Position numbers and translations under genes: made by a program
DNA from: a virus
Direction: 5' to 3' (one strand)
Length of the DNA: 36,089 nt
IMG/VR virus record: IMGVR_UViG_3300037300_000016
Coordinates: 1 to 36,089 of that record
The notes under the pieces: generated by a model
The model's database searches: none
The model's input: only the letters and a program-made list of their open reading frames with translations
What the model was told of the DNA's origin: nothing
In this document: piece by piece, positions 935 through 32,086 of the stretch
Layout: every line of letters begins with the position of its first letter
Position numbering within the stretch: position 1 is the first letter of the stretch

Positions 935-3900
935 TTAATATGCGAGCCGACCACCAACAGTCCGACCACCAACAGAAGAAGCATCCGCCGAATGCAAGCA
1001 GAACGCACCCGCAAACGCGCCAATATGAGCACCACCGCCCACAAGCACAACCCGATTGCTTGACGCCGATGCATAATGATAATCTGTTATGTAAGTAGTA
1101 GAGCCGCCACCTGAATTGGTCGAACTTAAAAAGTAAGGGTCAACGGTTGTTGACATATCTCGAATGAAACCTGATGCCGTTGGAAAGCTACTAGTTACTA
1201 ACTCCATGCCTGTTGCCGTATTATCGGCAAAGAAAGCCGCATCATTAGTGATGTGAACATTACCCGTAACTGTGACATTGACATTGATACCGTCAGCCCA
1301 ATTAAAACAATTACCGTAAAAGTTTTCAATACCACGATATTTCATAAACGATGTGCCAGGCTTTGCACTTACGCCTGCACCTGAAGTGGTATTAGTAGAG
1401 CCGTTGGCAATCGAATCACCTGCACCTGCTATGGTATGTGGGCTGTCAGTTTGGTTGCCACTTGAGCCAAGATACCCGCCATTGGTATTTCCTGCACCCA
1501 AAATATCTTGCGAGTAAAACGATTGGTGTTCAACAACAAACAACAATTGAATTGCAGACCATAAAGCATAATCCATTTGACGCCAACCAGTGCCATTAAC
1601 CGAAGCTAACAGCCTAAACTCATTTCTAGTTAACCCAACCATAGGATAAATGCCTTTTACACTTGAGAGCTTGTCTGCGGCCGTGTCAACGTTACCATTG
1701 TTGTTATCTAAGTTAGTGCCTGAAATGTAAGCCGATGCTGAAGTGTCAAAAACACAAGCGTCATACGCACCCATGTATCTAAAGTCTACCTCTACATTGT
1801 CTTTAATAAATGCAGGGTGAGTCACATAACCCGACTGTTGTACAGCAGAGATTTTCCAAGTGGTTTCTGTCCCTGCGTACACAATACGATAATAAAACTT
1901 AGGTATCTCTACCATTACGTTACCGTCTGCACCCGTCAAAACAGAAGCTGTACCGTTAGCTTGTTGTGCCCAATTTGTTGGGTTCAAGTAATAATTAACC
2001 GAACCATCAGCGTTAAGCACACAGCCACGCATCATGTCGTGGATACCCGTAACGACCTGTGATCGACCAAAGACTGAATTAGGCGTAGAGGTAAACGAAT
2101 TCCAAGTAAAAGAACCTGTCAATAACTCTTGGCGCACATTTGACTGCCCTGTAACCGTTGACTGCCCTGTAACCGTTAAGTTGCCCACTACTACGTTGTT
2201 AGAATCCTGATATGCCATCGTGCCTAAAAACTGATTCAGCGGTATTTGGTTCGGGTCTGTGCCGATGTCTCGCTGAGTCACTACATTATAATAATCGACA
2301 CCATTAGGTGATTCTGTTATTGAACCATTTACGGCTAATTTGGATCCAGGTGTTGTCGTACCAATACCAGTATTACCGGAACCATTGACATATAGTCTTA
2401 GGACACCATCACCATCAGAAAGAATAATGTTATTGTTGCTGGTACGAATGTCAAGACCATTACTGTTACCATCGAACGAACCTAGTATTGAGTTCTTTGA
2501 TCCTGTGGTTATTGCTTGACCTGAGTTAACACCAATTGCTGTGTTGTTGATGCCCGTGGTGTTAAAGCGGAGTGCGTTCTGCCCGCTGGCTGTGTTGTAG
2601 TTGCCTGTGGTGTTGGAGTAGAGTGCGTCTCTCCCACTGGCTGTGTTGTTTGTGCCCGTGGTGTTGCTGAAGAGTGCTTGACGCCCGTTAGCTGTGTTGA
2701 AGTTGCCCGTGGTGTTGTCGCGGAGTGCGCCCCCCCCGCTAGCTGTGTTTTGAGCGCCCGTGGTGTTGAGGTAGAGTGCGAACGCCCCGCTGGCTGTGTT
2801 GAAGTTGCTCGTGGTGTTGCTATAGAGTGCGTTAAACCCGCTGGCTGTGTTGAAGCTGCCTGTGGTGTTGCTCCGGAGTGCGTCCTTCCCGCTGGCTGTG
2901 TTCAAGATGCCAGTGGTGTTGGAGTAGAGTGCGTCCTGCCCGCTGGCTGTGTTGCTGATGCCTGTGGTGTTGTTGAGGAGTGCTTGAAACCCGCTGGCTG
3001 TGTTTAGACTGCCTGTGGTGTTAGCATTTAAAGCACCAGACCCCAGTGCGGTGTTTGTCGATATGGCCCCAGCACCTTTGCCTACTGTTAAGCCTGACAG
3101 GGTTGCGTCGGTTGTTGAGGAAATAGCTCCAGTTACTGCCAACGCCCCAGAGTTCACAGCCGCCAGCGTAGATGTTCCTGTAGCCGACAGCGTAGTGAAC
3201 GCACCTGTGCTTGCTGTTGTTGCGCCAACTGTTCCGTTAATGTTAATAGATGCAGTACCAGTCAAATTAGTGACTACACCTGCCGATGGAGTACCAATAT
3301 TTGGTGTGACCAATGTAGGACTTGTGGCAAATACTAAAAAACCTGTACCAGTTTCATCACTAATGACTCCAGCTAATTCTGCAGAAGTTGTAGAAGACAG
3401 AACACTAATTTTATCAGCAGTTTTTACTAATGTAGACGACGCAGGTATTGTAGTACCGTTTAAAATTGTAGTCGATGAACTGTTTATCGTCGTAAATGCG
3501 CCAGTTGATGCAACACTTGCGCCAACTGTTCCGTTAATGTTAATAGATGCAGTACCAGTCAAATTAGTGACTACACCTGCCGATGGAGTACCAATATTTG
3601 GTGTGACCAATGTAGGACTTGTGGCAAATACTAAAAAACCTGTACCAGTTTCATCACTAATGACTCCAGCTAATTCTGCAGAAGTTGTAGAAGACAGAAC
3701 ACTAATTTTATCAGCAGTTTTTACTAATGTAGACGACGCAGGTATTGTAGTACCGTTTAAAATTGTAGTCGATGAACTGTTTATCGTCGTAAATGCGCCA
3801 GTTGATGCAACACTTGCGCCAACAGTAGTACCATTTATTGACCCGCCAGTAATCGTTACATTTGATAGAGCATCAATCTCCATTGCATTGTTAAGTTCTT

Positions 3901-4443: not shown

Positions 4444-4451
4444 TATTTATA
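4444..4451 (-). promoter_or_regulatory. T4-type late promoter box TATAAATA
   Basis: A perfect TATAAATA on the minus strand, in the spacer before the 67-residue Mtd-N-type gene and partly within the last codons' neighbourhood of the preceding 66-residue gene. T4 late promoters consist of essentially this box, read by the gp55 sigma factor. It would drive the small gene and the fibre behind it. Confidence 0.7.
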
Positions 4452-4659: not shown

Positions 4660-5007
4660 TCACTCAATAATTTTTGTGACTGATGGAATTAATTCAAAAA
4701 TTCCTTCTAATAATTTTATCCTGCTATTACTTATTTCTGTGTTCATTGAATATATGTCATACACATACCGACCGCTCTTCATACTAGCAGTTTGTTCTGA
4801 GGTTAATTTGACATGAATAACGCCACCGGTGGCATTATACTTAACAATGGTAAAGTCGACTGCATTTGTCGATTTGTATGTACGTCTAATTTGACCATAT
4901 AAATTGTATTCGGTTAAATCTAAAGGGTCGCCATTGGCATCTTCTAACTCTAAGATAGTCTGAAAATCCGCACCCTGATCTGCGCTAACATTAGCATATG
5001 ACGCCAT
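4660..5007 (-). CDS. Phage tail structural protein, beta-sandwich type (115 residues)
   Basis: The sequence runs DQGADFQTILELEDANGDPL, LYGQIRRTYKS, LTSEQTASMKSGRYVYDIYS. A protein with this order is commonly found near the fibre genes of T4-like cyanophages, and the pattern resembles the N-terminal domain of BppU-type baseplate proteins (weak resemblance, from memory). ATG 5007 is preceded by an AGGAA ribosome site about 12 nt upstream. It is the first gene of the leftward fibre cassette. Two minus-strand TATAAATA boxes lie upstream in the divergent spacer. It is likely an adaptor or small tail protein. Confidence 0.65.
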   Translation of the reverse strand: MASYANVSADQGADFQTILELEDANGDPLDLTEYNLYGQIRRTYKSTNAVDFTIVKYNATGGVIHVKLTSEQTASMKSGRYVYDIYSMNTEISNSRIKLLEGIFELIPSVTKIIE

Positions 5008-5041
5008 TGAAGTAAATTCCTGCGGTTAATTGTTATATTAG

Positions 5042-5049
5042 TATTTATA
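5042..5049 (-). promoter_or_regulatory. T4-type late promoter box for the leftward fibre cassette
   Basis: Perfect TATAAATA on the minus strand in the left arm of the palindrome. By the T4 rule the transcript would start near 5036, about 29 nt before ATG 5007. Confidence 0.75.
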
Positions 5050-5068
5050 CTTTTTACAATTTAAAAAG

Positions 5069-5076
5069 TATAAATA
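5069..5076 (+). promoter_or_regulatory. T4-type late promoter box for the plus-strand structural gene
   Basis: Perfect TATAAATA on the plus strand in the right arm of the palindrome. The expected start near 5082 leaves a leader of about 32 nt with an AAGAGA ribosome site before ATG 5114. Confidence 0.75.
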
Positions 5077-5093
5077 ACTACTGAATCTAACAT

Positions 5094-5101
5094 TATTTAT
5101 A
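5094..5101 (-). promoter_or_regulatory. Second minus-strand late promoter box in the divergent spacer
   Basis: Perfect TATAAATA on the minus strand, 13 nt in front of ATG 5114 of the opposite gene. A transcript from here would cross the palindrome, carrying a 15-bp AU-rich hairpin in its leader, and would overlap the start of the plus-strand transcript. The region is very A+T-rich, so chance occurrence is possible. Confidence 0.5.
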
Positions 5102-5113
5102 AGAGAAAACTTT

Positions 5114-7354
5114 ATGACCAGAAGCTTCAGTAAAAAGGGACTTCGTCGAGACCTAAACTTCTATGACATCGTAGACCCAAAACAATCATTAGAGAACTTG
5201 CTTGATGGGTTAGTTCAGGAAGAAGGCGAAACTTTTGTTTCTGCGGACATTGAAGTCATCAAGAACATTGATTCAAAGGGTGTTACTAGCGCAGACTTTG
5301 CAAACATTGCAGGATCTGCTATTCGAGTCGTCAGTTCAGAAGGTGGCATTGAAGTATATAAACCAGTCATAACACTGAAAAATCGTATTGACCAATCAAA
5401 ATATATAACTGGAGTACCTCAGTTATTTGGCGGTGATGGACTGACTGTCAGATACTATCCTGATACTCAAGTCGATTCCGTTGCAGTAGACTTAGACAAT
5501 ATTTTTACAGGTGCTCCAGCAGAAACAGAAGTCTTTTGGGAAAATGGGGATATAAACCTTTCTGTCGATGTACTTCAAGGAACTAAGAGCAATTATGGTG
5601 GAGCAATTTACACAGGATTTTTTAAACCTACGGAATCTGGTCCTCACGTATTAAGAGTCAGTACTAATTCATATTTTACTGTTGAATTTGGCGAAGCCGA
5701 TACAATATTGGCCAGAAAGTCTCAGGTAGTGCATACGTTTGCATGTGATGCTGCTTCTACATCTGCAACCACTATTACACTACAAAATATTGCTAATGTA
5801 AAAAATCTCTTGATTGGAGATATTCTTGTCAATGACGCAATATCTCAATTCAGTGATCCAGAAAGTAATCCAGTCACTATCGCTGGAATTAATCTATTGA
5901 CAGGGGTTATAACCATATCAGAACCACTCGATGCCGGATTTGCTAGTGGAACCACATTTGACTTTACATATAATATTGGAAGCGGAACAGCAAGTAATGT
6001 AAATTTAGTTCTAGGCGATTTAATTATTGGCGAAGCATATCCTATACAAATTAGATTTTGGCTAGATGACGCAAATGGCGAAGATATATCGCTTGCAACT
6101 CAAAAGACTATTATTTTCAGCATTGGAGTACCATCTACTTCAAATAGAAGTTTAAACTATAAATTTTTATATGATGAAGATTATAATATAGACCCGTCAC
6201 CATCTGACGTAGATTATGGAGAATTCAATTCATTCTATGATAATCGGATTCCGTCATATGGTGGTATCGTAGGCGGAGTGTCTGCATATTCCGATTATCA
6301 ATCAGTTGTTTCTCTTAACAAACTCAATATTACATATACACCGCCTATATCACTTGCAAGTGCAATTAGACGTACTGCAACGGTAGCATTCTTGACGGGT
6401 ACAACAACTCTTGCAGTATCTGATACAACAGACTTGATTGAACCAGGGAATTTTATATTCGGCACTGGAATAAATGCCGGAACACAAGTTACAGATTTTA
6501 ACATTAATTCATTAATATTCATTAGTAGCGAAACAACAACTACCACTGCATCTACTTCTCTGGTCTTTGTTAATCATCGTGGTCTAGGTGCATTTGAATC
6601 ATCTGCCATATGGTCGAATGCTGGGACTACAATAAGTGGTCTATCTACAAACACGGTCAGTAATATTTTAATCGGTGATGTTGTCGTTCTGAACGGATCT
6701 CCGCTCTATAATGTGGTCGTCACTAAAGGATCTACGAGTATCACGACTTCTAAGTCATTCACTGCTACATCAGGATCTGGTATTAATGGTACGGTGCTCT
6801 TTTATCGTGCCAAAGGTCTTTACAATAATTCATTAACTGATTACTGTACAAATGTATTTTCTGACGTAACAACAGTACAAAGTAATGCAGGAAGCAATAC
6901 ACTTACCATTGAAGATGATACAAATTTGATTGTAGGACAAGTTGTTCAGTTTGGAACTCGCATACCCACAGGCACTACTGTAGTTAGCATTGTACCATCA
7001 GGCAGTGATTTTATTATAACTCTTTCTGCAAATATAGCAGATGACATTCCTTCTGGACAATTGATTATATTTGCCCCAGGCGGCACTATAGACTCAAAAG
7101 AAATTTGTTTTCCACCAATTGATACATCTCCACCATTTACAGCAACATCAACAGGACTGATTACTACATCAGGCAGACCATCTATGAAAATTGAACCTAC
7201 GATAACAGGAACAGGTGAATTGAAGTTTCAGTCGCTCAAAGCAGATTCAGTTACTGTAGTGTCTGCCTCTGTAGCAGATACCTATGATCGCACAATTACA
7301 ATCAAAGATCGTGCTGGTGCAACATTCAAAATACTTGGAAAGATTATTGTTTAA
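5114..7354 (+). CDS. PA14-domain virion structural protein, only plus-strand gene
   Basis: A 746-residue protein. Residues about 112-205 (LTVRYYP, AIYTGFFKPTESGPHVLRVS, YFTVEFGE) look like the first half of a PA14 carbohydrate-binding domain. The second half appears near 310-330 (YPIQIRFWLDDANGED). Between them sits a repeat-type module (about 209-286). Similar modules recur at about 421-486 (TTLAVSDTTDLIEPGNFIFG), 503-564 and 584-654 (NTLTIEDDTNLIVGQVVQFG). The N-terminus (FYDIVDPKQSLENL) resembles those of the two neighbours at 7344-8327 and 8335-10842. It starts divergently from the fibre cassette, behind its own TATAAATA box, and ends convergent with and overlapping its right neighbour by 11 nt. 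PA14 and context suggest a tail protein that contacts surface sugars (inference). Confidence 0.8.
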   Translation: MTRSFSKKGLRRDLNFYDIVDPKQSLENLLDGLVQEEGETFVSADIEVIKNIDSKGVTSADFANIAGSAIRVVSSEGGIEVYKPVITLKNRIDQSKYITGVPQLFGGDGLTVRYYPDTQVDSVAVDLDNIFTGAPAETEVFWENGDINLSVDVLQGTKSNYGGAIYTGFFKPTESGPHVLRVSTNSYFTVEFGEADTILARKSQVVHTFACDAASTSATTITLQNIANVKNLLIGDILVNDAISQFSDPESNPVTIAGINLLTGVITISEPLDAGFASGTTFDFTYNIGSGTASNVNLVLGDLIIGEAYPIQIRFWLDDANGEDISLATQKTIIFSIGVPSTSNRSLNYKFLYDEDYNIDPSPSDVDYGEFNSFYDNRIPSYGGIVGGVSAYSDYQSVVSLNKLNITYTPPISLASAIRRTATVAFLTGTTTLAVSDTTDLIEPGNFIFGTGINAGTQVTDFNINSLIFISSETTTTTASTSLVFVNHRGLGAFESSAIWSNAGTTISGLSTNTVSNILIGDVVVLNGSPLYNVVVTKGSTSITTSKSFTATSGSGINGTVLFYRAKGLYNNSLTDYCTNVFSDVTTVQSNAGSNTLTIEDDTNLIVGQVVQFGTRIPTGTTVVSIVPSGSDFIITLSANIADDIPSGQLIIFAPGGTIDSKEICFPPIDTSPPFTATSTGLITTSGRPSMKIEPTITGTGELKFQSLKADSVTVVSASVADTYDRTITIKDRAGATFKILGKIIV

Positions 7355-32078: not shown

Positions 32079-32086
32079 TATTTATA
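32079..32086 (-). promoter_or_regulatory. T4-type late promoter box directly before gp25
   Basis: Perfect TATAAATA on the minus strand in the 33-nt A+T-rich spacer between the PAAR gene and gp25. With T4 spacing (box at -13 to -6) the transcript would begin at the A of ATG 32073. Chance occurrence in A+T-rich sequence cannot be excluded. Confidence 0.5.

Follow-up and report, generated by a model that had tools for sequence, protein, structure and literature searches.

Genomic context of the divergent gene pair

The window (the whole stretch of DNA analysed here, i.e., 36,089 nucleotides of the IMG/VR record IMGVR_UViG_3300037300_000016) originates from an uncultured marine T4-like phage. It carries genes for baseplate wedge, hub and VrlC-like proteins and, judged by the gp6-like protein, its nearest isolates are the Methylophilales phage Melnitz and the Pelagibacter phage HTVC008M (about 36% identity). 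The main structural genes all run leftward, with the sole exception of a gene on the plus strand at positions 5114–7354, which encodes a virion-like protein of 746 amino acids without family assignment and is oriented opposite to all its neighbours. Relatives of this gene were found in three viral contigs only (L125, 99%; L126, 90%; L124, 51%), and its product matched nothing in isolate phages, genome contigs, PHROGs or Pfam. As the Pfam search stayed empty even at E = 1, the label “PA14 gene” used in an earlier note on this DNA could not be confirmed.

To its left, the minus strand encodes a protein of 115 amino acids (4660–5007) assigned to phrog_1084 / phrog_3304, “L-shaped tail fiber protein assembly”. 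It is the first gene of a leftward tail-fibre cassette, as in many cyanophages and pelagiphages, where a gene of this kind likewise heads the cassette. The position of the locus corresponds to the hypervariable host-recognition cluster following VrlC (PMC7029224). As the leftward structural operon is broken up by this counter-oriented gene, the tail-fibre cassette would need a promoter of its own. Apart from this locus, two quasi-palindromes of the same sequence (TGACTCCAGCTAATTCTGCAGA...) lie at 3364–3399 and 3661–3696, which points to a repeat with a distance of about 297 bp within the gene of a tail protein of 1077 amino acids.

A perfect palindrome holding two outward late boxes

Between the divergent genes, sequence inspection, inverted-repeat search, folding and simulation all bear on a perfect inverted repeat at 5042–5076, the arms of which (5042–5056 and 5062–5076) are complementary at 15 of 15 positions and enclose the 5-nt spacer CAATT. 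The arms hold two outward-facing TATAAATA boxes with 19 nt between them: a proximal leftward box (5042–5049, minus strand), with a predicted start at about 5036 and the ATG of the 115-aa gene 29 nt further on, and a rightward box (5069–5076, plus strand), with a predicted start at about 5082 and the ATG at 5114 following after 32 nt. A third, distal leftward box (5094–5101, minus strand) opposes the rightward one; its predicted start lies at about 5088 and would give a leader of about 81 nt with the palindrome inside. The exact palindrome, the distance of 19 between the outward boxes and the third box had all been described in the earlier note and were confirmed by our sequence, box and inverted-repeat scans. 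The box scan revealed a further leftward late box within the tail-fibre cassette (4444–4451, minus strand), ahead of the ORF 4386–4183. In total, TATAAATA occurs seven times in the window, compared with 3.98 ± 2.01 expected from shuffles, and at least seven occurrences were reached in 10 of 100 shuffles, so that the count by itself is weak evidence.

The palindrome exceeds chance. It is the sole perfect 15-bp hairpin with a loop of 3–10 nt in the window, 60 first-order Markov simulations produced no such hairpin, and the chance probability of the palindrome amounts to about 1.4e-4 per 106-bp spacer of the local composition. An inverted repeat of 8 bp comes automatically with any two opposed boxes; the further 7 bp of symmetry per side had a post hoc probability of P = 0.0009 when the inner 19 nt were shuffled, and an identical upstream 7-mer was found, again post hoc, in 0.4% of real late-promoter pairs from relatives. 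Given these low chance probabilities (about 0.001–0.004), some selection may act on the perfect symmetry. Further copies, which the earlier note had proposed to look for, occur neither elsewhere in the window nor in the related contigs, each record with the palindrome having exactly one, and a looser pattern search matched the same three related contigs only.

An intrinsic terminator was also considered for the palindrome and rejected, as its stem is AT-rich with one G-C pair and does not provide the G+C-rich stem plus T run; a terminator scan reported no terminator-like site there either. The scan for sigma-70 promoters gave 18 matches and thus no excess over the 19.4 in shuffles, and the DNA search of isolates around the spacer returned only a 93-bp match, lying outside the spacer.

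Evidence for T4-type late promoters

In T4, the late box occupies positions -13 to -6 and transcripts start at the sixth base after it (PMC1524935), and the late motif accepted for T4-like phages of marine origin is NATAAATA (PMC2984593). Across the window and the loci of 80 relatives, 90 of 151 TATAAATA occurrences (60%) were followed by an ORF on the same strand within 60 nt, which ranks first among 56 permuted octamers of the same letters, used as controls, for which the median was 12%. Moreover, NATAAATA was found within 200 bp upstream of homologues of the 115-aa gene on the gene strand in 62 of the 76 cases with enough upstream sequence, compared with 10 of 76 on the opposite strand. The promoters of relatives also prefer A at the base where T4 late transcripts begin, the sixth after the box. 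The plain TATAAATA box is thus statistically detectable in the phage group of the window, unlike the outcome of a survey of pelagimyophages, in which satisfactory late-promoter prediction was not obtained (PMC7029224).

With three exact boxes that are conserved and closely precede virion genes, the prediction of T4-type late promoters at 5042–5101 is well supported. The equal firing of both sides proposed in the earlier note, however, finds no support: the sixth base after the box is A in 70% and T in 11% of the relatives’ promoters, and here the predicted leftward start (5036) is an A and the rightward one (5082) a T, while the leftward boxes number two. Genes for the late sigma factor and the clamp are annotated in the relative Melnitz-1; a search for the late sigma gene, run without a positive control, gave no match in the window or the three related contigs, all of which are fragments. 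In broad scans of viral contigs for two-box and three-box patterns, the signal was inseparable from the AT-rich background among the matches listed, and these scans do not enter into the evidence given here.

A separate pattern emerged for ATAAATA boxes in the same phage group, which are sharply enriched at a distance of exactly 13 nt from the start codon that follows (12 cases, some loci giving more than one), compared with 1–4 cases at adjacent offsets and 3 and 0 for two control motifs; a second, broad peak lies about 26–42 nt before the start codon. One such box with the 13-nt offset precedes the gp25-like ORF 32073 in the window (32079–32086, minus strand), and others occur likewise in L262, L263, L279, L317, L326, L336 and L337. 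Combined with the T4 start site, this offset would yield leaderless late mRNAs.

Boxes are conserved, symmetry and spacing are not

The divergent gene pair is kept in only three related contigs (L124, L125 and L126), two of which are nearly identical in the spacer, so that the comparison covers a small sample: the spacers of the window, L125 and L126 and two copies in L124, i.e., five of one family, plus that of the distant phage L259. All three boxes are present in every relative found with the divergent pair, including both L124 copies. Poor conservation of the boxes in close relatives, named beforehand as the refuting outcome, was looked for and not found, which supports the earlier proposal of divergent T4 late promoters.

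In L125 and L126, the palindrome and the boxes are identical to those of the window. The first L124 copy differs from the window by 10 substitutions in the 106-bp spacer, distributed as 0/24 in the boxes, 2/14 in the inner arms, 2/5 in the loop and 6/63 elsewhere; the absence of box changes is weak evidence taken alone (P = 0.067), and both arm substitutions are uncompensated at the DNA level. The second L124 copy is only 62% identical to the window spacer. It keeps the three boxes in the same order, which only 0.13% of spacers simulated with its composition show, but the gaps measure 11 and 27 nt compared with 17 and 19 in the window; beyond the boxes its symmetry is lost, leaving arms of about 10 bp with a 23-nt spacer. 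Even L259, in which the divergent gene is pfkB-kinase-like, has three boxes in the window’s order, with gaps of 17 and 38 nt. In this set of spacers, box identity and order are kept, and symmetry and box spacing are not.

These data bear directly on the possibility that the palindrome is a symmetric operator or a strictly coupled two-way promoter, at which binding of a dimer or alternating binding of polymerase would balance the two transcripts. The exact 15/15 symmetry above chance would fit such an element, as would the identity of the palindrome in L125 and L126 despite a rightward gene in L126 that is only 90% identical in DNA. Yet the spacer of these two contigs is merely about as conserved as the better-conserved neighbouring genes, the first L124 copy carries its two uncompensated arm changes at the background rate, the gap between the outward boxes widens to 27 nt in the second L124 copy and to 38 nt in L259, and the initiation contexts of the two sides are unlike. 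We therefore consider an operator or coupled promoter improbable. More generally, the notion of the palindrome as a compact functional unit is not supported, with inner arms that change at the same pace as the rest of the spacer and a box spacing that varies.

The earlier note had also suggested roles as an RNA structure or a recombination site. As RNA, the palindrome could form a hairpin in the leader of the distal promoter and thereby act in stability or translation control; the window sequence folds with -11.9 kcal/mol (z = -5.9), and the first L124 copy still folds with -15.0 kcal/mol (z = -2.5). The diverged second copy, however, has no hairpin (z = +0.57), the stem is nearly all A-U with the predicted ribosome-binding region outside of it, and the leader of the proximal promoter would lack the element altogether, which makes this function very unlikely.

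In L124 (2448–3000), a segment of about 412 bp that is 94.7% identical to window positions 4750–5160 adjoins the diverged second spacer copy and is accompanied by truncated copies of both flanking genes; it may represent a natural duplication or mosaic of the promoter segment, or an assembly chimera. A duplicated segment beside truncated genes would show that the locus does recombine, and would be in line with the palindrome being a site-specific recombination site or the end of a mobile element. But each record with the palindrome has that single exact one, the similarity in L124 breaks within the flanking genes, away from the palindrome, and the adjacent genes have no match to a recombinase family, so that such a role is extremely unlikely.

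Proposed function of the promoter cluster

Since it is the boxes that persist among the relatives and not the palindrome in full, the spacer resembles an ordinary promoter region with unusual symmetry. From these comparisons we consider it highly probable that the locus is a divergent T4-type late-promoter cluster, in which the boxes are under selection, whereas the 15-bp symmetry would be local to the lineage and not itself required. Each TATAAATA would represent the element at -13 to -6 that a gp55-type late sigma factor recognises together with the sliding clamp. The respective polymerase would transcribe the 746-aa gene from a rightward start at about 5082 and the tail-fibre cassette from leftward starts at about 5036 and 5088, with late timing predicted for all three promoters, and both flanking genes are probably switched on late in infection by the three boxes. 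The cluster could consequently restart the leftward tail-fibre operon around the counter-oriented gene, and would be an example of T4-like marine phages keeping a late operon running past such a gene.

The predicted starts at 5036 and 5082 are 46 bp apart, and two polymerases would therefore probably interfere. For the starts at 5082 and 5088, the predicted transcript overlap is only about 7 bp; as each polymerase would cross the promoter of the other, some interference is likely here as well. The symmetric bidirectional arrangement might itself be selected, with mutual exclusion of gp55-type polymerases, modulated by the third promoter, setting the ratio of the cassette to the counter-oriented virion protein, although we judge this to be quite unlikely. 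Under the favoured reading of selected boxes, the full symmetry is probably incidental. It was perhaps perfected by template-switch homogenisation of the inverted-repeat arms in A-rich back-to-back promoters, a known process (PMC8604942, PMC7202029).

Comparison with known promoter systems

In bacteria, the bidirectional promoters described by Warman et al. (PMC12825309) share with the window their symmetry and close divergent starts. They feature, however, one shared -10 element and starts about 10–23 bp apart, whereas the window has separate boxes, a wider distance between its predicted starts and another sigma factor; a shared -10 bidirectional promoter was hence rejected for this cluster. 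A case closer to a shared element was observed in other relatives of the locus, where the self-complementary box TTATTTATAAATAA occurs in L286 (about 2955–3001) and L315 (about 2966). It consists of two overlapping boxes, from which divergent starts at a distance of 23 bp would be expected, i.e., a predicted true shared-box bidirectional late promoter, and in L286 it sits between divergent genes, the left one being weakly glycosyltransferase-like.

The late promoters of the T4 type that marine cyanomyoviruses and pelagimyophages use (NATAAATA; PMC2984593, PMC9004378) agree with those of the window in the box and in its placement before structural genes, but differ in that the window combines two promoters in one palindrome with a third overlapping. 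Opposed late boxes forming short palindromes recur where late genes diverge, as such pairs are found in T4, in Melnitz-1 (an inward pair between the head-completion and tail-tube genes, an outward pair elsewhere) and in further relatives, e.g., TTATTTATAAATAA in L286, TATAAATATATTTATA in L281 and TATTTATAaTATAAATA in L334. The T4 g4/g53 spacer, like the one in the window, separates divergent virion genes and holds two opposed TATAAATA late boxes in an inverted repeat (TTATAAATA ... TATTTATAA, 9 bp). There, the two boxes point towards each other across 7 nt, while the window features an outward pair 19 nt apart, 15-bp arms and a third box. Compact clusters of opposed late boxes thus recur, at the tail-fibre locus of the window as well as at T4 g4/g53, and the locus described here would apparently be a real and conserved divergent late-promoter cluster of this known kind, whose palindrome is unusually perfect and seemingly dispensable.
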